Of a stretch of DNA of 64,000 nt, positions 8,250 through 61,899 are shown in pieces (within the stretch, counting starts at the first letter, position 1; each line of letters begins with the position of its first letter). Below the pieces are notes generated by a model. The model searched no databases. It was not told the DNA's origin and was given only the letters and a program-made list of their open reading frames with translations. The DNA lies in the NCBI RefSeq assembly GCF_030815485.1, contig NZ_JAUSWV010000002.1, forward strand, positions 1,240,001 to 1,304,000, given 5' to 3'. Made by a program: the position numbers and the translations under genes. The stretch comes from Streptomyces rishiriensis. Lineage in GTDB: Bacteria; Actinomycetota; Actinomycetes; Streptomycetales; Streptomycetaceae.

Positions 8250-8937
8250 GATGTTCGTGGCGACCTCTTGCCCGGTGGACCTGCCTCACCAGCGCGGGGA
8301 CCGCACGCGGCCCACATGCCGGATCCGCCGACGGGTTCACATGGCGGAACCGTGGTGAGAACCCCGGGGCCTTCCCCGTACGGGGGACGCCAAGGCCGAA
8401 GGCGAGAGTCAGGGCGAGCGTCCGCTACGACTCGACTCCCGGACGTGCTACGACCGCGAGTGCGCCGAGGGAAGGCGTCACGCCCAAGCAGTGATCGTCC
8501 TCCCCGCGGACGCACCCTGCGTCCGACACCGTGGCAGCGCATGATCGCCGGGGAGCAACGCGGACGCCACCGGGGACGGGGTGGAGAACGCCTGCACATC
8601 CCGGGTTCACCCATTCGGCCTACCTCAGCTCACGTCCGCGGGCGGAGAGGTCTTCACTGGCGGTGAGGTCCGGTCCTTGCCATCGCTTCCTACGCCGGTG
8701 CACAGCGGGAGACAGCGTCTCCCTCCCCACAGGGTCCGGCCGGTGCCCGTCGGGCCGCGCGACGCGGCCGGTCCGGCGCAAGCGGTCACCCCAGCGCCAA
8801 CCGACCGAACGTCCTCGCCGTCGAGAGACGCCGCCCGTCACCGGCTCACATCACAGCGCTGCGGATCACCAGCAACCGCACGGACCGTGAACACCAGCGG
8901 CCGCGATCCCAACCAGCCCTACGTGAAGGGTCCAGCC
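8250..8937. other. Long intergenic region before rppA
   Basis: About 690 bp in which the open frames lack ribosome sites and family resemblance. The frame of rppA is open from 8581, but the extra N-terminal residues are Arg/Pro/Thr-rich and unlike any RppA, so they are treated as leader. I see no defined repeats or strong hairpins. Confidence 0.5.
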
Positions 8938-10113
8938 ATGCCCATCCTGTGTCACCCCGCCGTCGACGTCCCCGAGTACGTCATCACCGCTGAGGACACG
9001 CTCGCCCTGGCGGAGCATCAACACGCCGATCACCCTCAGCTCGCACTCGCGCTCAGGCTCATCCGCAACACCGGGGTGAGCAAGCGCCACCTTGTCCAGC
9101 CCATCGAGCAGACCCTGCGCCATCCCGGTTTCGAAGAGCGCAACCGCACCTACGAGGTGCAGGCCAAGGAGCGGGTGCCCGCCGTCGTACGGCGCGCCCT
9201 GGGCAACGCCGAGCTGGCGCCGCAGGAGATCGACGCCATCATCTATGTGTCCTGCACGGGCTTCATGATGCCGTCCCTCACCGCCTGGCTGATCAACCGG
9301 ATGGGCTTCCGGCCCGACACCCGGCAACTGCCCATAGCTCAACTGGGGTGCGCCGCGGGCGGCGCGGCTATCAACCGGGCTCATGACTTCTGCGTCGCCC
9401 ACCCCGGCAGCAACGTCCTCATCGTCTCGTGCGAGTTCTGCTCCCTGTGCTACCAGCCGAATGACCTGGACATCGGATCGCTGCTGTCCGACGGGCTGTT
9501 CGGCGACGCGGTCGCGGCTGCGGTCGTGCGGGGCCGAGGCGGCCACGGGGTGCGCCTGGAACGCAACGCCTCCTACCTCATCCCGCACACCGAGGAATGG
9601 ATCTCCTACGCCGTCAAGCCGACCGGATTCCACTTCCGGCTCGACAAGCGCGTACCGACCACCATGGAGCCGCTCGCCCCGGTCCTGCGCGACCTCGCCG
9701 CCGCACACGGCTGGGACGCCTCAGAGCTCGGTTTCTACATCATTCACGCCGGCGGTCCCCGGATCCTCGACGACCTGTGCTCCTTCCTGGGTGTCCACCC
9801 CCATGCCTTTCGCCACAGCAGGGCGACGCTCACCCAGCACGGCAACATCGCCAGTGCCGTGGTCCTGGACGCCCTGAGGCGCCTGTTCGACGAAGGTGAC
9901 ACCGCGAACGGCTCGTCCGGCATCATCGCCGGCTTCGGACCGGGCATCACCGCCGAGATGGCCGTGGGCAGCTGGGTCGCCGCACCGACGCGCCCCGCCC
10001 CGACCCGCTCCGCGACCAGGCAGCGAATCGCCACCGCACGGTCCCACAAGGCAGTCGGGACTCGGACGCCACAGGCCGTCGACCTCTGGTCTCTCTCCCC
10101 AGGCACGATGTGA
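8938..10113 (+). CDS. rppA: Type III polyketide synthase, 1,3,6,8-tetrahydroxynaphthalene synthase
   Basis: 391 residues. The whole length follows actinomycete RppA: ALRLIRNTGVSKRH near the N-terminus, YVSCTGFMMPSLTAWLIN, the catalytic Cys in QLGCAAGGAAINRAHDF, His in FYIIHAGGPRILDD and Asn in HGNIASAVV, with CEFCSLCYQ following the catalytic Cys. RppA condenses five malonyl-CoA into 1,3,6,8-tetrahydroxynaphthalene, which oxidises to flaviolin and melanin-like pigments. The ATG at 8938 is the family start. About 35 extra Arg/Thr/Ser-rich residues extend the C-terminus. The cytochrome P450 often found after rppA is absent; a decayed oxidoreductase gene lies there instead. Confidence 0.92.
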   Translation: MPILCHPAVDVPEYVITAEDTLALAEHQHADHPQLALALRLIRNTGVSKRHLVQPIEQTLRHPGFEERNRTYEVQAKERVPAVVRRALGNAELAPQEIDAIIYVSCTGFMMPSLTAWLINRMGFRPDTRQLPIAQLGCAAGGAAINRAHDFCVAHPGSNVLIVSCEFCSLCYQPNDLDIGSLLSDGLFGDAVAAAVVRGRGGHGVRLERNASYLIPHTEEWISYAVKPTGFHFRLDKRVPTTMEPLAPVLRDLAAAHGWDASELGFYIIHAGGPRILDDLCSFLGVHPHAFRHSRATLTQHGNIASAVVLDALRRLFDEGDTANGSSGIIAGFGPGITAEMAVGSWVAAPTRPAPTRSATRQRIATARSHKAVGTRTPQAVDLWSLSPGTM

Positions 10114-10193
10114 TCCGGGCCGTAGCCTCTCGGACGACCGCCGACACTCACAGCGGGCACAGGAACGGGCGCAAACGGTCGTATGCCACCGCA

Positions 10194-27612: not shown

Positions 27613-27906
27613 TCAGCAGGTGCGGCCGGTGTAGTGCGCGCCCTGGATCTTGGCGGCGGATCCCAGCCAGGACGTGCCGGGACCGACGCAGCGCTCGTAG
27701 TCGGCCGCCCAGGCCACGTCGACCTTGATGACCACGCGTGAGCCGTCCGAGGTGCAGTGGTTGTAGAAGGCGTCGGAACCGGTCTCGTAGAAGCCGCACG
27801 GGTCCGCGGCCGCGGGACCGGCGGTGGCGGCGGTCAGCGCCCCCGAAAAGGTGAGGACGAGAGCGACGGAACCGAGGGTGCTGAGCACCGTACGACGAAC
27901 ACGCAC
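27613..27906 (-). CDS. Small secreted DUF6355-like protein
   Basis: 97 residues from GTG behind AAGGAG. A Sec signal (VRVRRTVLSTLG, hydrophobic core, AAA cleavage site near residue 33) precedes a mature domain with DPCGFYETGSDAFYNHC, VDVAWAADYERCVGPG and a terminal Cys. The four cysteines could form two disulfides. This pattern matches the DUF6355 'natural product biosynthesis' family; the function is uncertain. It converges with the hydrolase gene over the palindrome. Confidence 0.78.
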   Translation of the reverse strand: MRVRRTVLSTLGSVALVLTFSGALTAATAGPAAADPCGFYETGSDAFYNHCTSDGSRVVIKVDVAWAADYERCVGPGTSWLGSAAKIQGAHYTGRTC

Positions 27907-28244
27907 AGCGGAACTCCTTGCCGACAAATGACGGGCGGTAGCGGGAAAAGCCCAGGTCCGACGAGGGACGTGAGGCCTGCACCAGGATCGTGGCGGACGC
28001 CTCGCGGGTGATCGAACGACGGGCCCGTTCACCCTGCGAATCGTTTCGCCGCTACTCCGTTGGAGTGGTCGGCCCCGCACAAGCGACTAGGCGGTGCCGG
28101 ATCCCTGGGATGGCGGGCCGCTTCACCCGGGTGAGCGCCTTGAGTGGTGGAGCGGCGCTTACTGACTGACGGTGGATCACGTCAGGCCGGGTCGTGTCAG
28201 CTGACGAAGTGTCGGCTGCCCGGTCGTGACGGAAGGACCATCAG

Positions 28245-28928
28245 ATGCGTTCTGCTCGCATGATCCTGGCCACCGCGGCGGCTTCGGCCGCCCTCGCCAT
28301 CGGCGCCCCCGGTGCCTACGCCGCCGGTGACACGGACCACGACGACTCCTCCTGGAGCAAGGAGGACAGCTCCTCGTACAGCGACGAGCACGGCAAGGAG
28401 GACGGCTCGTCGTCCGCCAAGGAGGAGGACTCGTCGTCCGCCAAGGAGGAGGACTCGTCGTCCGCCAAGGAGGAGGACTCGTCGTCCGCCAAGGAGGAGG
28501 ACTCCTCCTACGGCAAGGAGCACGGCAAGGAAGAGCACGGCAAGGAGGAGAGCGGCAAGGAAGAGAGCGGCAAGGAGGAGCACGACTCCCCGCACGGTGG
28601 CATGCACACCGGCGGCGGCGCGCTCGCCTCGGTCAACGACAGCAGCGACCGCGGCGCGGCCAAGGACCCCAGGTTCGACCCCGAGACGTACAAGGACAAG
28701 GACGCCGAGAGCGGCGGTGAGCACGGCAAGGACTCCTGGAACGGCGGCAAGGAAGAGGAGTCCGGCGGCTGGAGCAAGGAGCACGACAAGCCCAGCGGCG
28801 GCATGCACACCGGCGGCGGCGCCCTCGCCGGCCCGTCGGCGACCGCGGCCGGACTCGGCGTCCTCGCCGTCGCCGGCACCGGCATCTACGCCCTGCGCCG
28901 CAAGAAGACGGTGGGGGGTGTGGCCTGA
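28245..28928 (+). CDS. Secreted low-complexity surface protein with HTGGGAL motif and C-terminal membrane anchor (copy 1)
   Basis: 227 residues. Signal peptide MRSARMILATAAASAALAIG with an AYA site near residue 26. A Ser/Lys/Glu/Asp/His-rich, probably disordered stalk has four SSSAKEED repeats and several HGKE/SGKEE repeats. PHGGMHTGGGALASV lies in the middle. The C-terminus is PSGGMHTGGGALAG, a hydrophobic stretch of about 20 residues and RRKK plus a few residues. That tail has the layout of a sortase cell-wall sorting signal, with TG in the right place but no LPXTG or LAXTG. A close paralogue (54982-55575) sits beside a sortase gene. It is probably wall-anchored; the function is unknown. 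Confidence 0.8.
   Translation: MRSARMILATAAASAALAIGAPGAYAAGDTDHDDSSWSKEDSSSYSDEHGKEDGSSSAKEEDSSSAKEEDSSSAKEEDSSSAKEEDSSYGKEHGKEEHGKEESGKEESGKEEHDSPHGGMHTGGGALASVNDSSDRGAAKDPRFDPETYKDKDAESGGEHGKDSWNGGKEEESGGWSKEHDKPSGGMHTGGGALAGPSATAAGLGVLAVAGTGIYALRRKKTVGGVA
28407..28502 (+). repeat. 24-bp in-frame tandem repeat (SSSAKEED x4)
   Basis: Four consecutive 24-bp units encode SSSAKEED in the stalk of copy 1. They are absent from the paralogue at 55 kb, so repeat number has changed since the duplication. Confidence 0.85.
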
Positions 28929-46266: not shown

Positions 46267-46299
46267 CGCCCCACCACCGAGGCGGCCGCGGGCATGCGC

Positions 46300-46334
46300 G
46301 TGCGGCGTGCGGCGTGCGGCGTGCGGCGTGCGGC
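46300..46334. repeat. Heptamer tandem repeat GTGCGGC x5
   Basis: Five exact, adjoining 7-bp units lie between the kinase stop and the beta-helix gene. Seven is not a multiple of three and the array is noncoding in my gene model. It is prone to slippage and could change promoter spacing for the downstream gene. Confidence 0.85.
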
Positions 46335-46401
46335 CGACGGGACACGCCGCTGGATGGCCGATCGCACCGCTTTCGAGCCATCGGGTCATAACGTGCACAA
46401 T

Positions 46402-47502
46402 ATGAAGAAATGCCATATCGCATACTTGGCGTGCACGGCGGCACTGATCGGAGCGGGGCTCGGTGCCGCTCCGCCGGTCGCCGCCCACACAGTCCATGTG
46501 GTCCACCCAGGGGAATCGATCCAGAAGGCGGTGGACGCCTCGCAGCCGGGCGACACCGTTCTGCTGACCCACGGCATCTACCACGAGAGCGTCGACGTGA
46601 GCACGCCCGGGCTCACCCTGCGCGGCGTGGGCCGCGGCACGGTGCTCCAGCCGGAGACGGCCGCGAGCACCGGCAGCACCGCCCCGAGCACCGCATCGGG
46701 CGCCACGAAGGCCGCGAACAGCTGTGCCGCGGCCGGCAACGGCATCTGCGTCGTGGGCACGAAGGACCACAACGTCGACGGCGTCACGGTCGCCTCCCTC
46801 ACGGTGAGCGGCTTCGCCAAGACCGGCGTCTACGCCACGGAGGCCGACGGGCTGACCGTGCGACACGTCACCGCGGTGAAGAACGGCGTGTGGGGCATCG
46901 CCACGGAGCACTCGGTCCACGGCGTGTTCCGCGGCAACTCCGCCCGGGACAACGGCGACGCGGGTCTGTTCCTCGCCAACACCATCAAGGAGGAGCAGGG
47001 CGCCACGGACACCGAGGGAACCGTGGTCGAGCACAACCGGCTGGAGGGCAACCGGATCGGCGTCACCGTCCGCCGCCTGCGCAACCTGACCGTCGCGGAC
47101 AACCACCTCACGGGCAACTGCGCGGGCGTGTTCGTTGTCGGCGACGAGAACAAGCCGAAGGCCGGCTTCGTGACGGTGCGCGACAACCGCATCGAGCGCA
47201 ACAACAAGTCCTGCCCGAAGACCGCCCGGCTGGACGCCCTCCAGGGCTCGGGCATCGTCCTCACCGGCGCCGAGGACAGCCTGGTCACCCACAACGTGAT
47301 CAAGGACAACGTCGGCAAGTCCCCGCTGTCCGGCGGCATCGTGCTGTTCAAGAGTTTCGTGGGCACGACCAGCGACCGGAACCGGATCAGCGACAACCTG
47401 CTGCGCGGCAACTCGCCGGACCTCGTCAACACGGACACCGGCAAGGGCAACACCTTCGAAGGCAACTCCTGCCGCTCGTCGAAGCCCGCCGGTCTGTGCT
47501 GA
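46402..47502 (+). CDS. Secreted right-handed parallel beta-helix protein (NosD-like)
   Basis: 366 residues. Signal MKKCHIAYLACTAALIGAGLG with AAPPVAA at the cleavage region near residue 28. The mature start VHPGESIQKAVDASQPGDTVLLTHGIYHESV is the classic pectate-lyase-like opening. Rungs follow: NVDGVTVASLTVSGFAKTGVY, VRHVTAVKNGVWGIAT, NRLEGNRIGVTV, DNHLTGNCAGVF, NVIKDNVGKSPLSGGIV. Two cysteine pairs may be disulfides. Family members bind or cleave polysaccharides; catalytic residues cannot be assigned. Upstream frame-open codons run through the heptamer array and are not used. The methyltransferase gene follows after 35 bp, so the two are probably cotranscribed. Confidence 0.82.
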   Translation: MKKCHIAYLACTAALIGAGLGAAPPVAAHTVHVVHPGESIQKAVDASQPGDTVLLTHGIYHESVDVSTPGLTLRGVGRGTVLQPETAASTGSTAPSTASGATKAANSCAAAGNGICVVGTKDHNVDGVTVASLTVSGFAKTGVYATEADGLTVRHVTAVKNGVWGIATEHSVHGVFRGNSARDNGDAGLFLANTIKEEQGATDTEGTVVEHNRLEGNRIGVTVRRLRNLTVADNHLTGNCAGVFVVGDENKPKAGFVTVRDNRIERNNKSCPKTARLDALQGSGIVLTGAEDSLVTHNVIKDNVGKSPLSGGIVLFKSFVGTTSDRNRISDNLLRGNSPDLVNTDTGKGNTFEGNSCRSSKPAGLC

Positions 47503-47537: not shown

Positions 47538-48566
47538 ATGACGACCGCTCAGTCTGCCCCTCCACCGTCGATGCGGCTGCGGGAACTCGCCTTCGGGGCG
47601 GCCTGTGCCGCCGCCCTCCGCGCGGCCGCCCGGCTGGGCGTCGCCGACGCCCTCGGCGACAGCCCCACGGCCGTGGAGGACCTCGCGGCCGCGGTGAAGA
47701 CCGAACCCCGCCCGCTGCGACGGCTCCTGCGGGCCCTGTCCTGCTACGGCGTCTTCGCCGAGGGGCCGGACGGCTCGTTCGCGCACACCGACGTCTCCCG
47801 GCTGCTGCGCGAGGACGACCCCAACAGCCTGCGCGCCATCACGCTGTGGTGCACCGAGCCGTGGACCTGGGACGCCTGGCCGATGCTCGACGAGGCGGTG
47901 CGCACCGGCCGCAACGTGGTGGAGGACCTGTACGGCAAGGAGTTCTTCCCCTACCTCAACGAGGACGCCCCGGAGTCGGCCGACGTCTTCAACCGCGCCA
48001 TGACGACCTCCAGCGTGCAGTCGGCGCGGGACGTCGCGCAGTTCCTCGACCTGACGGGGAGTTCGTCCGTCGCCGACATCGGCGGCGGCCAGGGGCACGT
48101 GGTGGCGAGCCTGCTGGACAAGTACCCCTCGATGCAGGGGTCGCTGCTCGACCTCCCCCGGGTGGTGGAGAACGCGGTGCCGCGCCTGCTCGCGGGCGGC
48201 GACCTCGCGGACCGTGCGCGCGTGGTGCCCGGCGACGTCCGTACGGCCGTCCCGGTGAAGGCCGACGTCTACGTCATCAAGAACATCCTGGAGTGGGACG
48301 ACGAGAGCACGGCCCGCACGCTGCGCAACGTCCGTGAGGCGGGCGGCCCCGGGACCCGGGTCGTGGTCATCGAGAACCTCGTCGACGACTCGCCCTCGAT
48401 GCGGTTCAGCACCGCCATGGACCTGCTGCTGCTCCTCAACGTCGGCGGGGCGAAGCACACCACTCAGAGCATGGTGGACCGGCTGACCGAGGCGGGCCTC
48501 GTCATCGACGACATCAGCCCGGTCAACCCCTACCTCCACGCGTTCGACTGCCACGTCCCCGCGTGA
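47538..48566 (+). CDS. SAM-dependent O-methyltransferase (aromatic polyketide type)
   Basis: 342 residues with an N-terminal winged-helix dimerisation domain (MRLRELAFGAACAAALRAAARLGVADAL, VKTEPRPLRRLLRALSCYGVF) and a Rossmann methyltransferase domain with SSSVADIGGGQGHVVASLL (motif I, about residue 178) and VIKNILEWDDE. This is the class that methylates hydroxyls of aromatic polyketides. The ATG follows AAGGAAGGAAGG. It converges on the spore-pigment cluster over a 19-bp hairpin and may tailor that pigment, though cotranscription with the beta-helix gene is also possible. A methyltransferase is not part of the classical eight-gene whiE set. Confidence 0.86.
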   Translation: MTTAQSAPPPSMRLRELAFGAACAAALRAAARLGVADALGDSPTAVEDLAAAVKTEPRPLRRLLRALSCYGVFAEGPDGSFAHTDVSRLLREDDPNSLRAITLWCTEPWTWDAWPMLDEAVRTGRNVVEDLYGKEFFPYLNEDAPESADVFNRAMTTSSVQSARDVAQFLDLTGSSSVADIGGGQGHVVASLLDKYPSMQGSLLDLPRVVENAVPRLLAGGDLADRARVVPGDVRTAVPVKADVYVIKNILEWDDESTARTLRNVREAGGPGTRVVVIENLVDDSPSMRFSTAMDLLLLLNVGGAKHTTQSMVDRLTEAGLVIDDISPVNPYLHAFDCHVPA

Positions 48567-49023: not shown

Positions 49024-49759
<736 letters not shown>

Positions 49760-49794
49760 GCCATTCCCTTCCTCTACTGCTCCGCGGCGCCTCG

Positions 49795-51045
49795 CTACGA
49801 GGCGTCGGTGGCGCCGTGCCGCAGCACCAGCGCCGAGTTCGACCCCATGAGTCCCCGGCTCAGCACCAGAGCCGTGCGTACCTCGGCGGTACGGGCCCGG
49901 CCGGTCACCAGATCGAGGTCGTGGCAGATGTCGAAGACGTTGGGGGTGGGTGGGATCAGGCCGTGCTCCATCGCGAGCACCGCCGCCGCGACGTCCATCA
50001 GGGGCGCCGCGCAGTAGCCCCGGCCGATCCCGGTCTTGGGAGCCGTGACGGGCACGCGGGCGCCGTGTGCCCCGAGGGCGTCGGCGATCGCCAGTGCCTC
50101 GGCGCGGTCGGCCTCCGGTACGCCGAGGGCGTCGGCGAAGACCACGTCGATCTCCTCGGGAGCGCAGTCGGCCTCCTCCAGGGCCTGCCGGACGGCCTGG
50201 GCGAGCCCTTCCCGGGAGTCCTCCCAGCGGGAGGCGCCGGTGAAGGTCGCCGCGTGCCCGGCCAGGTAGGCCTGCACCCGCGCGCCCCGTTCCCGGGCCG
50301 TGGCCTCCGCCTCCACCACGAGCATGGCACCGCCCTCGGCGGGCACGAACCCGCAGGCCGCGGAGGTGAACGGGCGGTAGGCGCGGGTCGGGTCGTCGAC
50401 CGTGCTGAGTTCCTCGTAGCCAAGCTGGCAGACCATCGAGTAGGGCGCGATCGGCGCCTCGGTCGCCCCGGCCACGATCACATCGGTGCCGCGGCGCACG
50501 GCACGCGCCGCGTGGGCGAGGGCGTCCAGGCCGCCGGCCTCGTCGGCGGCGACGACCGAGCAGGGGCCCTTGAAGCCGCGGCGGATGGAGATCTGGCCGG
50601 TGCTGGCGGCGTAGAACCAGGCGATGGACTGGTACGGGCCGACGAAGCGACTGCCCTTGCCCCACAGCTGCTGGAGCTCCCGCTGCCCGAACTCGCCGCC
50701 GCCGGAGCCGGCCGCGGTGACCACGCCCACGGAGAAGGGGGCGGCGTCGGTCTCCGGCCGGCCGAGCTGGGCGTCGTCCAGCGCGAAGTCGGCCGCGGCC
50801 ATCGCGAAGTGCGTGAACCGGTCGGTCTGGACCAGGAAGCGCTCCTCGATCGCGGCCGACGGGTCGAAGTCGCGGACCTGGCCCGCCACCCGCAGCGGCA
50901 GATCCTCACAGCCTTCGCGGGTCACCCGGTCCAGGACGCTGATGCCCTCCCGGGTGGACTTCCAGAAGGTCTCGGTACTGGCTCCGTTGGGCGCGATCAC
51001 GCCGATTCCCGTGACGGCCGCGCGCCGTGGAAGGGGTTCGCTCAT
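49795..51045 (-). CDS. whiE-ORFIV: Chain-length factor (KS-beta) of type II PKS (spore pigment)
   Basis: 416 residues, thiolase fold, homologous to the KS-alpha next to it ([15 protein letters not shown] at the start, [31 protein letters not shown] near the end). As expected for KS-beta the catalytic Cys is missing. Unusually the position holds Glu: the segment reads [13 protein letters not shown] where most chain-length factors have Gln (DQAGG or EQAGG). The ATG overlaps the KS-alpha stop as ATGA (51042-51045), giving equal production of the two subunits of the heterodimer. Confidence 0.93.
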
Positions 51046-52310
51046 CGTGTCTTCTCCCTCGGCCGGTTCATGACCACCGCGGACTGGAAGCCGCCGAACC
51101 CGCTGCCCACCGAGAGCACACTGGCGAGCTTGCGCTCACGGGCCACGCGCGGGACGTAGTCCAGGTCGCACTCGGGGTCGGGTGTCTCGTAGTTCGCGGT
51201 CGGCGGTACGACCTGGTGCGCCAGGGCCAGCACACAGGCGACGAGTTCGATCGCCCCGATCGCGCCGAGCGAGTGCCCCACCATCGACTTGATGGAGCTC
51301 ATCGGCGTGTCGTAGGCGTGCGTGCCCAGGACCCGCTTCACCGCGGCGGTCTCGTGGCGGTCGTTCTGCTTGGTGCCCGACCCGTGCGCGTTGACGTAGT
51401 CGATCGCGGTGGGGTCGAGCCGGGCGTGGCCGAGGGCGTCCTCGATGGCCCGGGCCATCTCCAGGCCGTCGCTGGTCAGTCCGGTCATGTGGTAGGCGTT
51501 GCCGAACGTGGCGTACCCGCCGAGCTCGCAGTAGACGTGCGCGCCGCGGGCCCTGGCGTGCTCCAGCTCCTCCAGGACGAGTACGGCGCCGCCCTCGCCC
51601 ATGACGAACCCGTCACGGTCGGCGTCGAAGGGACGCGAGGCGTGGGCCGGGTCGTCGTTGTTCGAGGAGGTGGCCTTGATCGCGTCGAAGCACGCCATGG
51701 TGATCGGCGAGATCGGCGAGTCCGAGGCGCCGGCTATGCATATGTCGGCCCGGCCCTCCTCCACGGTGTGGAAGGCGTACCCGACCGCGTCGAGCCCGGA
51801 GGTGCAGCCCGTGGAGACGGTCTGCACCGGACCGCGTGCCCCGAACCGCTCCGCGACCGTCGAGGCGAGCGTGCTGGGCGTGAACGCGCGGTGCAGGTGC
51901 GGGGCCGCCTCCCGGTGATCCACGTCCCAGCGCTGTCCGCCGTGGCTGACCAGGACGTAGTCGCTCTCGAGCCGGGTGGTGCCGCCGACCGCGGTGCCCA
52001 GCGAGACGCCGACCCGCCAGGGGTTCTCCGCGGCGAGGTCGAGACCCGCGTCGCGTACCGCTTCGTCCCCGGCGACCAGGGCGAACTGTATGTAGCGGTC
52101 GCACCGCTCGACGTCGGTCGCGTCCAGACCGTGGGCCGCCGGGTCGAAGTCGCACTCGGCGGCGATCCGCGACCGCAGACCGGCCGGGTCGAAGAACGTG
52201 ATGGCCCGCGTCGCCGTGCGTCCGTCCGCCAGGAGGTTCCAGAACGCCGGGACGCCTATGCCGCCCGGGGCGACGATGCCTATGCCGGTGACCGCCACTC
52301 GTCTCGTCAT
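51042..52310 (-). CDS. whiE-ORFIII: Ketosynthase alpha of type II PKS (spore pigment)
   Basis: 422 residues. Catalytic Cys in [16 protein letters not shown], His in [11 protein letters not shown] and [14 protein letters not shown], plus the [19 protein letters not shown] segment. All marks of an active KS-alpha are present. With the chain-length factor it condenses malonyl units on the ACP into a long poly-beta-ketone. The start overlaps the cupin gene stop (ATGA, 52307-52310) and the stop overlaps the CLF start, so cupin, KS-alpha and CLF are translationally coupled. Confidence 0.95.
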
Positions 52311-52750
52311 GAGCGCACCTGACGTCGCTCGGCCGACTCCGCCCCGACCACCGCGGGCTCGGCTTCGGTTCCCTCGGTGTCGACGTGGCCGAGCGGCGGG
52401 CTCGGGGCCAGCGGGCCGAGGTGGAAGACCATCCGGGCCTCCACCTTGCCGACGTTGCGGAAGCGGTGGCGCACGTTGAGGGGGATCAGGAGCCCCTGCT
52501 CGGGCTGGAGCGGGTGCGGCTCGCCGTCCAGGTCCACTTCCAGCTGTCCGCACACGACGTACACGAACTCCTCGGAGTACGGGTGGTAGTGCTCACCGAT
52601 GCGGTCGCCGGGCTGGATGAGGGCCACGCCCATGAAACCGCTGGTGGCGCCCACCGTTGCCGGGGTGAGCATGGCGCGCAGGTCGCCGCCTCGCCGGGTG
52701 TTGGGCTCGACCTCGCTGAGATCCATGATTCTGTGACGAGAAGTGATCAC
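52307..52750 (-). CDS. whiE-ORFII: Cupin protein of the spore-pigment cluster
   Basis: 147 residues from GTG behind GGAGGAA; an internal ATG at 52726 is less likely because the family begins with the ITSRHRI-type segment. [27 protein letters not shown] is cupin motif 1 with metal-ligand His and Glu, and [15 protein letters not shown] is motif 2. It corresponds to WhiE ORFII, found directly before KS-alpha in spore-pigment clusters. The exact reaction is not established; a cyclase or oxygenase-like step on the polyketide is usually supposed. Confidence 0.92.
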
Positions 52751-52821: not shown

Positions 52822-53967
52822 TCAGGCGTCGGGCGACCGGCGGTCGGTGACGAGATCCATGCGCGCCAGTTCGAGGAAGCGCGCGAGGCGGCCGTCCTTC
52901 GACGCGGACGCGCCGCCGGCGTCGAGCGTCGTCAGCTCGGCCACCTGCGCCGGGTCGGACAGACCGAGGGCCTGCACGGGGTCGGCGGCCTCGAGTCCGC
53001 CGCGCACGTCGATCAGCCGGACGACGACGTCGTCGCGCTGGAAGATCGTGCTGCGCAGGACCGGGCTGCGCGGGTCGTCCGCCGCCGCCTCGTCCTGCCG
53101 GGCGAGCAGCTCGGCCAGCTTCATGCCGCGGTCGGGGCGGGTCGGGTAGTACAGGGCGTACCGCTCGGCCTGCGCGTCCTGCCGCTCCGCCGTCACGTGG
53201 TGCACGGCCGGCAGCGCGGCCCGGGTGAAGAAGACCCGGGCGGACTCGGGGTCGTTGAGGTCCCGGTCCTGCTCCAGATGGGGGTTGATGGCCTCCTCGA
53301 CGGCCCGCACCTCGGGCTGCCGGGAGACGTGACGCAGCGCGGAGAGCAGGTCGCCGCGCACCTCGATGGCCCGCACCACCCGGTTGCCGTGCATGAACAG
53401 CGAGGTGCGGCACAGCCGGGTGGTGTCGTCGACCTGCGGCTCGGGCGAGGCGTAGTCGGCCAGGATCTTGGCGACGATCTCCTCGCTGCCCGGCTTGACG
53501 GTGAAGGTGAGCGCGTGCCGGATCACGCCGTCGCCGATCCTGGGCGCCGTCTGGAGCCGGCGCTTCGCCTGGTCGGCGGCCGCCGCCGGGCCACCCGTCT
53601 CGCGGACGACGTGGAAGCGCAGCGAGCGGGTGTCGCGCACGCAGCTGTGCAGCGGCTCCACCATCGCCACGTGTTCCTCGCTGTTGACCCAGGCGAGGAA
53701 CGGCGGGGCGCTCTCCCACTCGCTGGTGATCAGCCACTGGGAGGGGTTCTCGATGGACTGGCACAGCTGGTCGCTGACGTGCCCGGGGACGGACGCGACC
53801 TGGTTGCAGAGCTGCTCGTACGCCTCGAGGAACTGCTGCTGGGCTCCGTCGTAGACGTCGACCAGAAGGACGACGCGGAGCCGGGAACCGTCGAACACGG
53901 ACTGGGAGACACGTTGCGACGCCTGTCGCGCCCGCGAACCTGCAACACGTTCGGACGTGGTGGTCAT
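52822..53967 (-). CDS. whiE-ORFI: SchA/CurD-like protein, first gene of the spore-pigment operon
   Basis: 381 residues. It has repeated ABM/ferredoxin-like units: [39 protein letters not shown] and [26 protein letters not shown], with [19 protein letters not shown] and [20 protein letters not shown] as matching strands. This is the SchA/CurD family (WhiE ORFI). The role is not firmly known; it is needed for, or associated with, pigment deposition. ATG has AAGGAG upstream. A 137-bp gap separates it from the sortase gene, which must hold the operon promoter. Confidence 0.9.
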
Positions 53968-54104: not shown

Positions 54105-54866
54105 TCAGACGAGATGGGCGAAGACGACCAGGTTGTCGGTGTAGTCCTTGACCCGGCGGTCGTAGGCCCCCGCACAGGTGATGAGCCGCACCTGCGCCTC
54201 GGCGGTGTCGCTGTACACCCGCTCGTTGGGGAAGTCGGCCTTGTCGAAGGTCTCCACGCTGTCGACCCGGAAGGACGCCTTGCCGCCGTCGGCCCGCAGG
54301 ACCTGGAAGCCGTCGCCCTTCGCCAGTGCGCTGAGCCCCGCGAAGACGGCCGGGGAGGTCTTGGTGTCGACGTGTCCGGCGATGATCGCGGTGCCCGTCT
54401 CCCCGGGGGAGGCTCCCTTGGCGTGCCAGCCGACGAGGTTGACGTCGTTCGCCGGGGGCGGCTCCAGCCGGCCGTCGGCGCCGATGGCGAGGTCGACGAA
54501 GGGGGCGTCGACCCCGATCTTCGGGATGCGCAGCCGTACCGGCCGCGAGCGCGGCAGATGCTTGCCGACCGGTTCCCCGCTGTCCGGTTCCGCGGCGTCC
54601 GCCGCTCCGGCGGGCGTGGTCGGCGTGACCGGTCCGGTGGGCGCGGGGACCGACCCGGCGGCGGGCGGAGCGTGCGGTGGGCCGGCGATGCCGTTCGACG
54701 TGTCGTTTCCGCCGCCGAACAGGTTCAGCGCCAGGAGCACCGCGAGCGCGGCGCAGACCATCATCACGCCGGCGCGGGACGTTCCCTCTTCGGTGGGCGC
54801 CGGCTCGGTGCCGGAGGGGTCGGCGGGGTCGGAGGGAGAAGGGGAGGACGAAGGGGGAACTGCCAT
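54105..54866 (-). CDS. Class F-like sortase
   Basis: 253 residues. A short Pro/Ser-rich cytoplasmic start, one membrane segment (GVMMVCAALAVLLALNLFGGG), a Pro/Ala linker (to about 115), then the sortase domain. The catalytic His is in IIAGHVDT, Cys in RLITCAGAY and the probable Arg in YDRRVKDYTDN. The LITC-to-DNLVVFAHLV ending fits class F sortases of actinobacteria. It would anchor surface proteins to the cell wall from outside the membrane. Directly upstream on the same strand, 115 bp away, is the surface-protein gene with a sorting-signal-like C-terminus, so the two are probably enzyme and substrate. ATG at 54866 has GAGGTGG upstream. Confidence 0.88.
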   Translation of the reverse strand: MAVPPSSSPSPSDPADPSGTEPAPTEEGTSRAGVMMVCAALAVLLALNLFGGGNDTSNGIAGPPHAPPAAGSVPAPTGPVTPTTPAGAADAAEPDSGEPVGKHLPRSRPVRLRIPKIGVDAPFVDLAIGADGRLEPPPANDVNLVGWHAKGASPGETGTAIIAGHVDTKTSPAVFAGLSALAKGDGFQVLRADGGKASFRVDSVETFDKADFPNERVYSDTAEAQVRLITCAGAYDRRVKDYTDNLVVFAHLV

Positions 54867-54924
54867 CGGGGACCACCTCATTCGGGCGCGGCAGCGGGGC
54901 GGACAGAGCACGGGGAGCGAGCCG

Positions 54925-54953
54925 GGCCGCCACACGGGGCATGTGCGGCGGCC
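54925..54953 (-). terminator. Hairpin after surface-protein copy 2
   Basis: GGCCGCCACAC (54925-54935) pairs with GTGCGGCGGCC (54943-54953) with one mismatch. It matches the hairpin at 28957-28989 and would limit read-through into the sortase gene. Confidence 0.65.
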
Positions 54954-54981
54954 GCGGCTGCGCTATCGCGTCCGGCACAGG

Positions 54982-55575
54982 TCAGGCCACGCTTCCGGCG
55001 GTCTTCCTGCGGCGCAGGGCGTAGACGCCGGTGCCGGCGACGGCGAGGACGCCGAGTCCGGCCGCGGTCGCCGACGGGCCGGCGAGGGCGCCGCCGCCGG
55101 TGTGCATGCCGCCGCTGGGCTTGTCGTGCTCCTTGCTCCAGCCGCCGGACTCCTCTTCCTTGCCGCCGTTCCAGGAGTCGTCGCCGTGCTCACCGCCGGT
55201 GGAGCTGCCGAACCCGGCGTCCTTGTCCTTGTACGTCTCGGGGTCGAACCTGGGGTCCACGGCCGCGCCCCGGTCGCCGCTGTCGTTGACCGAGGCGAGC
55301 GCGCCGCCGCCGGTGTGCATGCCACCGTGCGGGGAGTCGTGCTCCTCCTTGCCGCTCTCTTCCTTGCCGCTCTCCTCCTTGCCGTGGTCCTCCTTGCCCT
55401 GGTCCTCCTTGCCGTGGTCCTCCTTGCCGTGCTCGTCGCTGTACGAGGAGCTGTCCTCCTTGCTCCAGGAGGAGTCGTCGTGGTCCGTGTCACCGGCGGC
55501 GTAGGCACCGGGGGCGCCGATGGCGAGGGCGGCCGAAGCCGCCGCGGTGGCCAGGATCATGCGAGCAGAACGCAT
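54982..55575 (-). CDS. Secreted low-complexity surface protein with HTGGGAL motif and C-terminal membrane anchor (copy 2)
   Basis: 197 residues. The first 45 or so residues, including signal peptide and AYA site, are identical to copy 1. The stalk has HGKED/QGKED/SGKEE repeats instead of SSSAKEED. PHGGMHTGGGALASVND and the C-terminal PSGGMHTGGGALAG plus hydrophobic segment and RRRK tail are kept. The tail looks like a sortase sorting signal without the L-P/A. A class F-like sortase gene follows on the same strand. It probably forms a flexible, charged wall-anchored layer; function unknown. It is inserted between the hydroxylase and SchA/CurD-like genes of the pigment cluster. Confidence 0.82.
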   Translation of the reverse strand: MRSARMILATAAASAALAIGAPGAYAAGDTDHDDSSWSKEDSSSYSDEHGKEDHGKEDQGKEDHGKEESGKEESGKEEHDSPHGGMHTGGGALASVNDSGDRGAAVDPRFDPETYKDKDAGFGSSTGGEHGDDSWNGGKEEESGGWSKEHDKPSGGMHTGGGALAGPSATAAGLGVLAVAGTGVYALRRRKTAGSVA

Positions 55576-55709
55576 CTGATGGTCCTTCCGTCACGACCGG
55601 GCAGCCGACACCTCGTCAGCTCAGGTGACCCGACCGGGACGTGATCCACCGTCAGCCGCCCGTCGCCGCGGCACCACTCGGGGCGTTCACACGGGTGAAG
55701 CCCGTTGGG

Positions 55710-57371
55710 TCAGGCGAGGCCCAGCCCGGTCTTCAGGACCCGGCGCAGCGTCGCCTCCGCGTCCGCGTCCGGACCCGGCGACCGCCATACGACGAACCCG
55801 TCGGGCCGCACGAGTACGGCGCCCCCGGGTGCCGTGCCGTGGCGCTCCGCCCAGTCGGCGTCGCCCTCCGGCACCAGGTCCGCGTCGGCCCCTGTGCCCA
55901 CCCGGTACGACCTGAGGGGGAGGACCAGTTCCTCGGCGAGGCGGGTGGCGGCCCGGTGCCATCCGCTCTGCTCACCGGCATCGCTGAGCAGGACCAGCGA
56001 CCGCTCGTAGAGGTCGAGGGTCGACAGCCGTTCGTTCCCGCGGCGGACCCACAGGTGAGGCGCCCTGCTGCCGGGCCCGCCGGTCAGGTCGAGACTCTCC
56101 GGCACGACCGGGACGGCGGGGTCGGCGCCGACGACGGCGCCCTGCGGGTAGCGGTAGCCGAGGGCCACGTTGAGGATGCCCCGCTGGGGACCACCGCCGC
56201 CCGCTCCGGGCGGCGGGGCGAAACCGGGGTGGCTGTGCTCGGCGGACCGGGCGGCGGCCCGGGCGCTGGTGGCCTCGGCCACCGGGCGGCGTTCGGCGTC
56301 GTAGGTGTCCAGCAGCGCCTCCCCCGCCCAGCCGTCGATCACCGCGGCCAGCTTCCAGGCGAGGTTGTGCGCGTCCTGGATGCCGGTGTTGGAACCGAAG
56401 GCGCCGGTGGGGGACATCTCGTGGGCCGAGTCGCCGGCCAGGAACACCCGTCCCGACCGGTAGCTGCGGGCGACCCGCTGGGCGGCGTGCCAGGGCGCCT
56501 TGCCGGTGATCTCCACGTCGAGGTCGGCGACCCCGACCGCCCGGCGGATGTGCTCGACACACCGCTCGTCGGTGAACTCCTCGAGGGTTTCGCCGCGTTC
56601 GGGGTGCCAGGGGGCGTGGAACACCCAGTTCTCTCGGTTGTCCACCGGCAGCAGGGCGCCGTCGGCCTCGGGGTCGGTCAGGTAGCAGACGATGAAGTGG
56701 CGGTCGCCCACGACGTCGGCGAGACGGCGGGAGCGGAAGGTCAGGCTGACGTTGTGGAACAGGTCGCCGGGCCCGCTCTGACCGATGCCGAGCTGCTCCC
56801 GGACGGGGCTGCGGGGACCGTCGGCGGCGACCAGGTAGTCGGCACGGATGGTGGTGTGCTCACCCGTCTCGCGGCTCTTGACCACCGCGGTGACGCCGGT
56901 GCGGTCGCTGTCGAACGACATCATCTCGGTGGAGAAGCGCAGGTCGCCGCCGAGCTGCCGGGCGTGCTCGAGCAGGACCGGCTCGAGGTCGTTCTGGCTG
57001 CACAGGCACCAGGAGCTGGGGCTGAAGCGGGCCAGGCCGCCCCCCGGGTCGATGTCCCGGAACAGCCACTCGCCCGCGTCGCCGACCAGGGTGGGCGCCT
57101 GGAGGATGCCGTGGTTGTCGGCCAGGGTGGCGGCGGCCTCCTGGATCGCCTGCTCGACACCGGCCACCCGGAACAGCTCCATCGTGCGGACGTTGTTGCC
57201 GCGGCCGCGCGGATGGATGGAGGTGCCGGCGTGGCGCTCCACCAGTACGTGCGGTACTCCCAGGCGTCCCAGGAACAACGAGGTCGCCAGTCCGACCAGG
57301 GAACCTCCGACGATGAGGACCGGGACCCTGATGGTGCGGGGCCCGGTCTCCTCGGCTCGTTCTTTCGTCAC
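55710..57371 (-). CDS. whiE-ORFVIII: FAD-dependent aromatic polyketide hydroxylase (spore pigment)
   Basis: 553 residues from GTG behind GGAGGCGAGA. The FAD motif is VPVLIVGGSLVGLATSLFLGRLGV, the DG motif YLVAADGPRSPVREQLGI and the GD motif VFLAGDSAHEMSPTGAFGSNTGIQDAHNLAWKL. A thioredoxin-like C-terminal domain completes a TcmG/SchC/WhiE ORFVIII-type hydroxylase, which hydroxylates the cyclised pigment. In the classical whiE locus ORFVIII is divergent from ORFI; here it runs in the same direction and is separated from ORFI by the surface-protein and sortase genes. Confidence 0.88.
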   Translation of the reverse strand: MTKERAEETGPRTIRVPVLIVGGSLVGLATSLFLGRLGVPHVLVERHAGTSIHPRGRGNNVRTMELFRVAGVEQAIQEAAATLADNHGILQAPTLVGDAGEWLFRDIDPGGGLARFSPSSWCLCSQNDLEPVLLEHARQLGGDLRFSTEMMSFDSDRTGVTAVVKSRETGEHTTIRADYLVAADGPRSPVREQLGIGQSGPGDLFHNVSLTFRSRRLADVVGDRHFIVCYLTDPEADGALLPVDNRENWVFHAPWHPERGETLEEFTDERCVEHIRRAVGVADLDVEITGKAPWHAAQRVARSYRSGRVFLAGDSAHEMSPTGAFGSNTGIQDAHNLAWKLAAVIDGWAGEALLDTYDAERRPVAEATSARAAARSAEHSHPGFAPPPGAGGGGPQRGILNVALGYRYPQGAVVGADPAVPVVPESLDLTGGPGSRAPHLWVRRGNERLSTLDLYERSLVLLSDAGEQSGWHRAATRLAEELVLPLRSYRVGTGADADLVPEGDADWAERHGTAPGGAVLVRPDGFVVWRSPGPDADAEATLRRVLKTGLGLA

Positions 57372-59882: not shown

Positions 59883-61607
59883 CTACTGCGGGTCTTCGCC
59901 GGCGACTTCGCAGGTGATCTCGTCCCGGGGGGTGTAGTGGGTGCGGAACGGCTCGCGCCGTACTTCCCTGCCGTCGGCGTAGAAGACCCGGTCGACGGTG
60001 ACGTCGAAGCCCTCGAGCGGGGTCTGCGGTACGCACTTGTCGTCCGTGCTCACCTTCCGCTCCGGCTGCCGGACGTGCGTGCGGGGGCCGGTGACCGACG
60101 TGACCTCGTCGTACTTCCTGGTGCCGAGGAAGGTGACGGTCACCGAGGTGTCGGTGGCCTCGGCCCGGATGTACAGGGCGTGGCCCGAGTCGTTGGCGAA
60201 CTTCAGATCGAGACTGCCCCAGGCGACCGTCGCCTCGCGGCCCTCCGGATAGCGCTCGATGTAGAAGGAGTGGGCCCCGTACTCCACCGGCTTGACGCCG
60301 GCGAAGAACATCGCGTTGAACATGGTCGTGGCCATGGTGGAGACGCCGCCACCGGGCGCCTTGGTGAACCCGCCGTCGAGGATCATGATGCCCTCGCCGA
60401 AGCCGTTGGCCTCGGTGCGCTGACCCACGGTCCGGTTGAAGCTCCAGGTCCTGCCCGGCATGACGACGGAGCCGTTGATGAGCTGTGCGGCCCGGCCGAT
60501 GTTCTTCGTGCGGTACGCGGCCGGTTCGAAATGGACGGTGAAGGAGGACATCTTCTCCGTCAGCCCCAGCCGCGCGGCGCTCTCGCGCGTCACCTGTGGC
60601 GGGGTCCGTCGCGCGGCCACTTCGCCGGTGCGGGCCGCTGCGCCGGACCGGGTGAGCAGCGGCAGCACGGCCTTGCTCAGCGCCTTGTCGGTGATCTGTA
60701 CGCCGGTCCGGGCGTCGTCGGCCACCACGACCCGGTCACCGTCCAGTCGCACGGCGGCGTTCGCGGCGGTGGTGGTGATGCCCGCCAGCGGGCGGGCCAC
60801 CGAGGGGGCCGCGCGCAGTCCCTTGACGTCCAGCTCCGGCACCAGCCGGCCGGCGTCGTCCGGCCGCATCGTCAGATGCTCGCCCAGCACGGTCTGGCCG
60901 ATGGTGAACCGCTTGCCGCCCGTGGTGAGGGTGACGGGCGCCGACACGGCAGGCCGCGCGAACTCGCGCACGGCGCGCCCGACCTCGTCCGCCGTGACCT
61001 TCGGCTGCGTCTCGCGGGCGGGCAGGACCGTGACCGCGCCGGCCTCGCCGCGCAGGAAGGAGGCCCGCAGGGTGCCGACGGCGGCATCCACGTCCAGTGC
61101 GTAGCCGGCGTGCGGGGCGACCTGCTCGACCCGGCCGCCGGCGAAGCCGACCGCACCCTCGCGGACCTTCTGGTCGAGGCTCTTCGCCAGCTTCCCCAGA
61201 GCGGTGCGGGCCTTGTCCTCGTCGACGCGGACGACCGGCTCCTGGTCGCCCCCGGAGCCGAAGAGGGCGGCGATCATGCCGACCGGGTCGGAGCCGACGC
61301 GGGCCGCCCGGTCGACCGTGCGCTCGGCGTCGAAGGTGAGTCCGGCCTGCCGCGGGTCGACGGTCGCTCCGCGGTCCCCGACCCGCACGGCCAGCTCCCG
61401 CGAGCCGTCCGCCGTCAGGTGTTCGTCCAGCTTCCGGACGGCCTCCGCACGGCTGAGGCCGCCGATGTCCACGCCGCGGACCGTCGTGCCCGACTCGATC
61501 TGACCGCCGGTGAGCAGCAGTCCGGCCAGGTACAGCGCGCCGACGCCGACGGTCAGCGCACCGCCCGCCAGGGCGAGGGGCGGTACGGAGGCTGTTCGGG
61601 GGCGCAT
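59883..61607 (-). CDS. VanW-family protein with YoaR-like peptidoglycan-binding domains
   Basis: 574 residues. A membrane anchor (LALAGGALTVGVGALYLAGLLLTGG) precedes two YoaR/PG_binding_4-type repeats (VRGVDIGGLSRAEAVRKLDEHL and PKVTADEVGRAVREFARPAVSAPVTLTTGGKRFTI), and the VanW domain lies at about 395-525: GRAAQLINGSVVMPGRTWSFN, GFGEGIMILDGGFTKAPGGGVSTMATTMFNAMFF, ERYPEGREATVAWGSLDLKF. It is a surface protein of unknown catalytic role linked to the cell wall. ATG at 61607 has AGGAGA upstream; the frame is open further but not homologous. Confidence 0.9.
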   Translation of the reverse strand: MRPRTASVPPLALAGGALTVGVGALYLAGLLLTGGQIESGTTVRGVDIGGLSRAEAVRKLDEHLTADGSRELAVRVGDRGATVDPRQAGLTFDAERTVDRAARVGSDPVGMIAALFGSGGDQEPVVRVDEDKARTALGKLAKSLDQKVREGAVGFAGGRVEQVAPHAGYALDVDAAVGTLRASFLRGEAGAVTVLPARETQPKVTADEVGRAVREFARPAVSAPVTLTTGGKRFTIGQTVLGEHLTMRPDDAGRLVPELDVKGLRAAPSVARPLAGITTTAANAAVRLDGDRVVVADDARTGVQITDKALSKAVLPLLTRSGAAARTGEVAARRTPPQVTRESAARLGLTEKMSSFTVHFEPAAYRTKNIGRAAQLINGSVVMPGRTWSFNRTVGQRTEANGFGEGIMILDGGFTKAPGGGVSTMATTMFNAMFFAGVKPVEYGAHSFYIERYPEGREATVAWGSLDLKFANDSGHALYIRAEATDTSVTVTFLGTRKYDEVTSVTGPRTHVRQPERKVSTDDKCVPQTPLEGFDVTVDRVFYADGREVRREPFRTHYTPRDEITCEVAGEDPQ

Positions 61608-61899
61608 GGGTCTCCTGGACGGACGAGCGGCGGGTGATCCGCCCCGCTGCGCGACGCCGTGCACGAGACGGCGCCGACGGCAGGGGCAAGCACCCCAAGC
61701 TACCCAAAAGGTCCGATGAAGCCATATGTCACAGAACACCTATGTTCCGCATCACGTCCGCCGCCGGGGCCGGCGGGCCCCGGCGGCCGGCGGCCCGCGC
61801 GGAGCAGCGCCTGCGGTGGCCTCCGCGACCGGCGGCCCCCCGCCGCGCGTGGGCGGCGGCATCCGCGACGCCGCCGGGCCGCACCCCGTCCCGGGACGG

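Follow-up and report, generated by a model that had tools for sequence, protein, structure and literature searches.

HTGGG-tailed proteins encoded with a class F sortase in Streptomyces, and a broader class F sorting signal predicted from sequence

Results

Two HTGGG proteins and a class F sortase

The DNA analysed (the window) is a 64-kb stretch of a 9.07-Mb genome. It encodes two related putative sortase substrates, copies A and B, and a class F sortase, which is the next gene 3' of copy B on the same strand. The features are as follows.

28120..28244, + strand: conserved region upstream of copy A, common to copy B and orthologues
28245..28928, + strand: copy A, putative substrate, 227 aa; no sortase adjoining; held-out tail profile score 35.4 bits
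28596..28631, + strand: copy A internal motif GGMHTGGGALAS, from a six-frame pattern scan
28797..28832, + strand: copy A C-terminal motif GGMHTGGGALAG, from the same type of scan
54105..54866, - strand: class F sortase, 253 aa; N-terminal membrane segment, then a catalytic domain with His165, Cys231 and Asn245
54982..55575, - strand: copy B, putative substrate, 197 aa; signal peptide, acidic and lysine-rich body, C-terminal sorting signal; held-out tail profile score 39.9 bits
55078..55113, - strand: copy B C-terminal motif GGMHTGGGALAG, followed by a membrane segment and RRRK to 54985
55291..55326, - strand: copy B internal motif GGMHTGGGALAS, from a six-frame pattern scan
55576..55701, - strand: conserved region upstream of copy B, common to copy A and orthologues

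Each protein opens with a signal-peptide-like segment, which leads into a body rich in Asp, Glu, Lys and Ser and then into GGMHTGGGALAG, a hydrophobic stretch and a short basic tail (RRKK in copy A, RRRK in copy B). In both, signal peptide, motif, membrane helix and basic tail follow one another as expected of a cell-wall sorting signal, with signal peptides and helices called by a simple hydrophobicity rule, and neither sequence contains an LPXTG or LAXTG pentapeptide. HTGGG was found by the six-frame scan at only four sites in the window (28605 and 28806 on the + strand, 55317 and 55104 on the - strand), two per protein. The first-pass annotation had described these C-termini as sorting signals lacking LPXTG and LAXTG, had noted one internal repeat of the motif per protein, and had placed a class F-like sortase directly after the second copy; each of these descriptions is confirmed here. 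Its interval, 54105-55575, covers copy B and the sortase but misses copy A, which lies 25 kb away. No Pfam family matched copy B.

Copies A and B arose by duplication: they agree at 176 of 192 aligned codons and also have some 125 upstream bases in common. Copy A is on the opposite strand from copy B and has no neighbouring sortase. The arrangement is seen in four more genomes: in G023, G182, G452 and G493, too, an HTGGG gene lies at a distance from the sortase (20-36 kb) and is encoded on the other strand. In G182 and G023 the sortase-adjacent copy appears decayed (lost helix; out of frame) and the distant copy fits the tail model, so that the distant copy looks like a working substrate and adjacency does not appear to be required.

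The conserved upstream region includes a perfect palindrome, TCACCCGGGTGA, at 28123-28134 in copy A; its counterpart in copy B is TCACACGGGTGA at 55687-55698 (+ strand letters). This element is possibly a regulator site. WhiA-like GACAC sites were also considered and not retained, as they were found in 21 of 48 regions upstream of substrates compared with 37% of random stretches, without clear enrichment. A small DUF6355 protein, possibly an envelope gene, adjoins copy A (27613-27894, - strand).

The sortase scores 206.6 bits against the NCBIfam class F model NF033748 (cut-off 166). An alignment of 38 sequences shows no variation at His165, Arg227, Cys231 or Asn245. According to the available portion of an earlier report (PMC6998099), actinobacterial class F sortases have Asn in place of the catalytic Arg; Asn245 is the putative replacement residue, an equivalence made without a structural check. 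AlphaFold returned a sortase fold of moderate confidence (mean pLDDT 72, pTM 0.57), for which the best Foldseek match was Corynebacterium diphtheriae SrtA (E 4.5e-9), and a sequence search of solved structures found no class F relative (best sortase match E=0.32). Class F sortases are widespread among actinobacteria: they were detected in 98 of 396 sampled genomes (E<=1e-20), in 60 of them above the curated cut-off, and 19 of the 20 sampled genomes of the window's genus gave 4 to 9 class F matches each.

The sortase and the HTGGG tail are inherited together

A scan for relatives of the sortase gave 66 loci, all titled Streptomyces apart from one Actinobacteria bacterium. Fifty-nine of these have a match to the tail profile described below (>=12 bits) 5' of the sortase gene and in the same orientation. 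The sortase start is within about 530 bases of a contig end at six of the seven loci without a tail, and the seventh (L019) lacks the neighbouring gene. H[T/A]GGG is present at 57 of the 59 loci with a tail, and the other two have ANAGLGG and AHAGLGG (L079 and L080). The association of copy B with its sortase is thus more than chance.

Co-occurrence was evaluated in 151 genomes of the window's genus, inferred from the related loci to be Streptomyces. Sortases of at least 56% identity were assigned to the window clade (81 rows), a limit set after the list had been seen; some relative of the sortase is present in 124 of the 151 genomes at E<=1e-40. Four of 91 tail matches, which spanned fewer than 140 bases, were excluded (three are internal copies in G433 and one is a partial match in G483). 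Of the 151 genomes, 77 have both the sortase clade and the HTGGG tail and 69 have neither; four have only the sortase and one has only the tail (p=7e-37). In each of the four sortase-only genomes the gene lies no more than 441 bases from a contig start, and the single tail-only genome is an assembly of about 1010 contigs. The tail is directly upstream of the sortase, within 1.5 kb and on the same strand, for 74 of 87 strong tails. The first-pass annotation had proposed co-occurrence of HTGGGAL C-termini with class F sortases as its own test, to be failed if no statistical link was found; with the sortase clade in 77 of 78 tail genomes and the tail in 77 of 81 sortase genomes, the proposal was not refuted.

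Related tails accompany class F sortases outside the window clade

All six class F sortases above the cut-off in the window's genome have a tail-bearing neighbour, some of which (e.g., L013 and L091) are also training rows of the profile. The five sortases other than that of the window adjoin secreted, tail-anchored proteins with PRGGADTGVG, PRGSVKTGVGG, GGVHAGGGG, PVAPVRAGGGG and, as a pair, PRGVHAGEGG and GGVRGGLGG. At the locus with the pair (L015), two putative substrates of differing dialect, at 8825-9502 (+ strand, GGVRGGLGG) and 9608-10144 (- strand, PRGVHAGEGG), are found with one class F sortase; such pairs recur at L120, L122, L125 and L137.

The tail profile was built from 52 proteins encoded beside class F sortases, with the window clade left out, and has the consensus P-x-G-G-V-x-T-G-G-G-G, helix, RRR. 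Copies B and A, held out of training, score 39.9 and 35.4 bits. Control scores reached at most 11.5 bits for 2063 ORFs from 20 arbitrarily chosen 20-kb stretches of four genomes (8.0 bits for the 21 of these ORFs that have both a signal peptide and a tail). At 30 class E search loci, 10 of them above the class E cut-off, the maximum for 571 ORFs was 8.9 bits. The 12-bit threshold is imperfect, since a 13.9-bit match at L013 (15804-15995), far from the sortase, looks spurious. In an alignment of 42 of the 52 training rows, from which ten near-duplicate or doubtful rows were removed by hand, every tail has Gly directly past the presumed cleavage position, and one Pro and one Arg are almost as constant. 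One training row, L113, is itself unconvincing.

A phylum-wide sample comprised 110 class F loci, of which 84 have a profile match nearby. In 81 cases the match precedes the sortase on its own strand, and the median gap, taken over all upstream pairs, is 46.5 bases. Above the class F cut-off, 63 of 73 loci have a match, including one (L144) judged spurious. Because the training rows come from this survey, its tail counts are not independent of the profile: 51 of the 84 loci with a tail supplied training rows, and a tail is present at 33 of the remaining 58 loci (L144 again among them). No profile tail was found at 10 of the 73 loci above the cut-off. One of these (L134) has PGPHTGFGGTAGG, recognised by eye, and two (L130 and L135) have decayed neighbours. 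At L099, L106, L113, L115, L154, L156 and L160 an over-cut-off sortase has no recognisable tail nearby, in some cases close to a contig end. Those away from contig ends may use distant substrates or another signal.

Independent of training are the window-clade scores, the 151-genome test and a set of 199 unseen genomes (G197-G395). Class F sortases were matched in 55 of the unseen genomes at E<=1e-20 and tails in 34 at E<=1e-5, and the tail occurs in 32 of the 55 class F genomes compared with 2 of the 144 others ([[32,23],[2,142]], p=8e-20). The association remains when the window's genus is excluded ([[20,23],[2,142]], p=4e-13). In both tail-only genomes the match is confined to the membrane part of the model. 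In the remaining 23 class F genomes no tail was detected at E<=1e-5, with 16 tail candidates scored per genome. Among the matches listed, 46 of 54 tails lie within 2.5 kb of a class F sortase (44 precede it in the same orientation), and 45 of 82 sortases have such a nearby tail; the eight non-adjacent tails may lie beside unlisted sortases. A further 14 of 68 tails are outside this count, as no sortase of their genome was among the matches listed. These data indicate that the tail predicts class F sortases well and that many class F sortases are without a tail detected by this search. In the training sample, no class F sortase reached E<=1e-20 in 4 of 32 tail genomes (G059, G092, G120 and G162).

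Motif dialects largely follow the sortase tree

Residues of the motif were mapped on a tree of 94 class F sortases and compared with 200 shuffles. P1 requires 19 changes (shuffle minimum 27, mean 34.8), P2 37 changes (minimum 57, mean 63.2) and P3 21 changes (minimum 29, mean 31.7). The motif window was chosen by an ad hoc scoring rule. Left out of the tree were L144 (spurious tail), L009, L013 and L014, together with L129, L133 and L159 (tail not upstream on the same strand) and L079 and L080 (no parsed motif); 11 of the 59 window-clade loci with a tail were entered. HTGGG is the dialect of the window clade and neighbours GVHAGGGG on the tree, and other clades have SVKTGVGG, GAPDTGV, APVxAGGGG, GVETGGGST, RVDAGSAG or AVNTG. 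Since dialects largely follow sortase clades, HTGGG appears to be one dialect of a broad G-V-x-[T/A]-G-x-G-G signal.

Clustering of 92 substrate bodies gave 23 groups without a BLAST link at E<=1e-4, so that many seemingly unrelated proteins have the tail in common. Joint inheritance of the two genes adds to the agreement with the tree, but it leaves unexplained the occurrence of the same motif on unlinked bodies.

On a deep branch of 19 sortases from other genera (among L167-L193), the signal is one residue shorter between Pro and Val, as in PTRVDAGSAG and PTAVNTGG; in most of the other clade it is longer by one residue.

Internal copies of the motif were found only in the window clade

At least one internal copy of the motif is present in 50 of 57 window-clade substrates, and GGG-[A/G/S]-L-[A/S/T] is kept in 71 of 72 internal copies. 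By a criterion of 8 of 11 identities, none of 83 class F neighbours outside the window clade was found to have an internal copy, and such copies were rejected as a general class F feature. No hydrophobic helix follows the internal copies listed, and they are therefore not ordinary sorting signals. The L055 substrate has six motif copies in all, indicating growth by repeated modules. A separate HTGGG protein (G433:C218:28745-29269) has several copies, some spaced 105 bases apart, consistent with expansion of a repeat module.

An N-terminal GGG is the classic sortase nucleophile. Cleavage of an internal site at H-T/G-G-G would give an acyl donor ending in HT and a fragment with an N-terminal GGG, making head-to-tail shuffling or linking possible in principle, and repeated-module growth together with the built-in GGG makes a linking of segments conceivable; this has not been tested. 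The first-pass annotation had raised a second site or cross-link point. That the internal GGMHTGGGAL copies are working sortase sites, linking substrate segments into a wall-bound spore polymer, is a speculation that we regard as improbable. If true, the sortase would polymerise substrate segments on spores and not just anchor single proteins.

The pair lies in a spore-pigment-type gene cluster

The neighbouring genes are as follows.

46294..47502, + strand: right-handed beta-helix protein in an SCO7453-like position (PF13229, 70.8 bits; order as in L036)
47538..48566, + strand: O-methyltransferase in an SCO7452-like position (PF00891, 118.8 bits; order as in L036)
49505..52726, - strand: cupin, ketosynthase, second ketosynthase-like (chain-length-factor position) and ACP genes of a spore-pigment-type PKS
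52822..53967, - strand: SchA/CurD and ABM protein in the whiE ORFI / SCO7451 position, next gene 3' of the sortase (PF04486, 176 bits; PF03992, 67.7 bits)
55710..57371, - strand: FAD hydroxylase upstream of copy B

SchA/CurD, cupin, ketosynthase, ACP and cyclase genes are found here together. We take the whiE, sch and cur clusters to be defined by such gene content, and on that assumption the locus is a spore-pigment-type cluster. About 20 of the 66 relatives of the pair are likewise near cluster genes, within 4 kb (FAD hydroxylase at 18, ketosynthase at 17, SchA/CurD at 20 and cupin at 20). A VanW/peptidoglycan-binding protein, possibly an envelope gene, is encoded near the cluster (59883-61739, - strand).

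In Streptomyces galbus (L036) an HTGGG protein gene is followed in turn by genes for the sortase, SchA/CurD, an O-methyltransferase and a beta-helix protein. The same order is given for SCO7449-SCO7453 of Streptomyces coelicolor (membrane protein, sortase, whiE ORFI-like, O-methyltransferase, secreted protein) in the available part of the published description (PMC3878966). There SCO7450 is termed a subgroup E sortase, with no sorting signal given in the text available. According to the same source, SCO7449 is expressed in sporulating hyphae in dependence on whiA and whiH, and deletion of SCO7449-7451 made colonies brownish, the only change detected; growth, sporulation, spore shape and stress tolerance were not detectably affected. 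From the position in a spore-pigment-type cluster and the SCO7449-7453 gene order we infer a role in the spore or aerial-hypha wall. Anchoring of these disordered, charged substrates there is plausible, with the case for and against it evenly balanced. The recognition rule proposed below also suggests why a sortase sits in spore-pigment clusters.

Discussion

The architecture of the tails, their genetic pairing with the sortase, the generalisation of the tail model to unseen genomes and the dialects that largely track sortase clades are computational observations. From these we consider it very probable that the HTGGG proteins are substrates of the adjacent sortase, that their tail is a complete sorting signal and that HTGGG is the window clade's dialect of a class F signal; biochemical evidence for this is lacking. 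The complete signal would consist of P-x-G-G-[M/V]-H-[T/A]-G-G-G-[A/G]-L, a membrane helix and a basic tail, with G-[M/V]-x-[T/A]-G standing in for L-P-x-T-G. The signal peptide would export the protein and the tail would hold it at the membrane, where the sortase Cys is predicted to cut between T (or A) and G, a cleavage site that is inferred. The acyl chain would then be handed to a cell-wall precursor, a step that is likewise an inference, transpeptidase activity and covalent wall attachment included. The general class F signal would be P-x-(x)-G-V-x-[T/A]-G-x-G-G, and HTGGG the dialect of one Streptomyces sortase clade.

The tails could instead be plain anchors, the HTGGG proteins remaining in the membrane while the neighbouring sortase works on something else. 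Cleavage data are lacking, and the charged, low-complexity bodies could function in a membrane-bound form. A membrane anchor by itself does not account for conservation of the motif, beyond the helix alone, across bodies without a BLAST link, for its variation with sortase clade, or for the rarity of motif-bearing tails where class F sortases are absent, and we give this possibility little weight. We give slightly less to processing of the HTGGG signal by the class E housekeeping sortases, the LAXTG enzymes. These do occur in the same genome, and the available portions of two reports describe anchoring of proteins by class E enzymes in Streptomyces and Actinoplanes (PMC5148588, PMC13251363). 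However, no such tail was found in the 1.5-kb flanks of the 30 class E search loci (10 above cut-off; maximum 8.9 bits), and it is the window-clade class F sortase that is present and absent together with the tail within one genus.

Least likely in our estimation is an old operon whose genes merely travel together, with the tail cut by another protease, as for a rhombosortase-like GlyGly signal. The motif preceding the helix is indeed Gly-rich, and a few tails match other C-terminal sorting models, weakly. Yet the gene next door encodes a sortase whose His and Cys are conserved, and each of the 23 body clusters would need a separate linkage to that sortase; no systematic search for another neighbouring enzyme was made. 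A rule of G-V-x-[T/A]-G-x-G-G with clade dialects makes many class F substrates predictable and provides many possibly orthogonal sortase/tag pairs for protein ligation.

Comparison with known systems

In the literature up to 2026, as far as the accessible text of the sources goes, the role of class F sortases is still called unknown. No published statement of a class F recognition rule was found, in a search that lacked most subscription journals. Recognition of LPXTG is reported for Cutibacterium acnes SrtF in the available part of one paper (PMC13257024), and class F is therefore not uniform. In Streptomyces yeochonensis, too, a class F sortase is encoded in a type 2 PKS cluster whose closest resemblance is to spore pigment; the available text of that report (PMC6998099) gives Asn in place of Arg, and no class F substrate or motif.

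Counterparts of the HTGGG proteins are AMIS_11010 and AMIS_36440 of Actinoplanes missouriensis, encoded beside srtF1 and srtF4, which likewise have a signal peptide, helix and basic tail and are without an LPXTG-type pentapeptide (mBio 2026, PMC13251363). In the portion of that paper available they are proposed as possible SrtF substrates and set aside by the authors for lack of a pentapeptide, with no motif named; a quadruple srtF deletion there formed normal sporangia, and no phenotypic change was reported. The rule given above may explain such orphan neighbours of class F sortases.

The tripartite architecture and the x-T-G core of the LPXTG and LAXTG signals, which are paired with class A and class E sortases, are also found in HTGGG tails. 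Class F tails differ in having no Leu-Pro or Leu-Ala, with mostly Gly at P4 and Val or Met at P3, often Ala for Thr at P1, and a Gly-rich stretch past the presumed cleavage position. Pfam Gram_pos_anchor matched only 1 of 42 tails. The nearest curated relative found is the NCBIfam model GVDTG_CTERM (NF058571), which similarly places G-V-x-T-G before a membrane helix and basic tail; its name and description are silent on class F sortases. It matches 25 of the 42 class F-linked tails at E<0.01, and of six substrates in the window's own genome one passes (L013, 30.1 bits). The two window proteins score 18.8 and 17.8 bits against a cut-off of 29 and are not formal members. The suggestion in the first-pass annotation that the pairing could reveal a new recognition motif is supported as to the pairing and broadened as to the motif, since HTGGGAL does not stand alone and is a clade dialect of a wider signal already modelled in part as GVDTG_CTERM.
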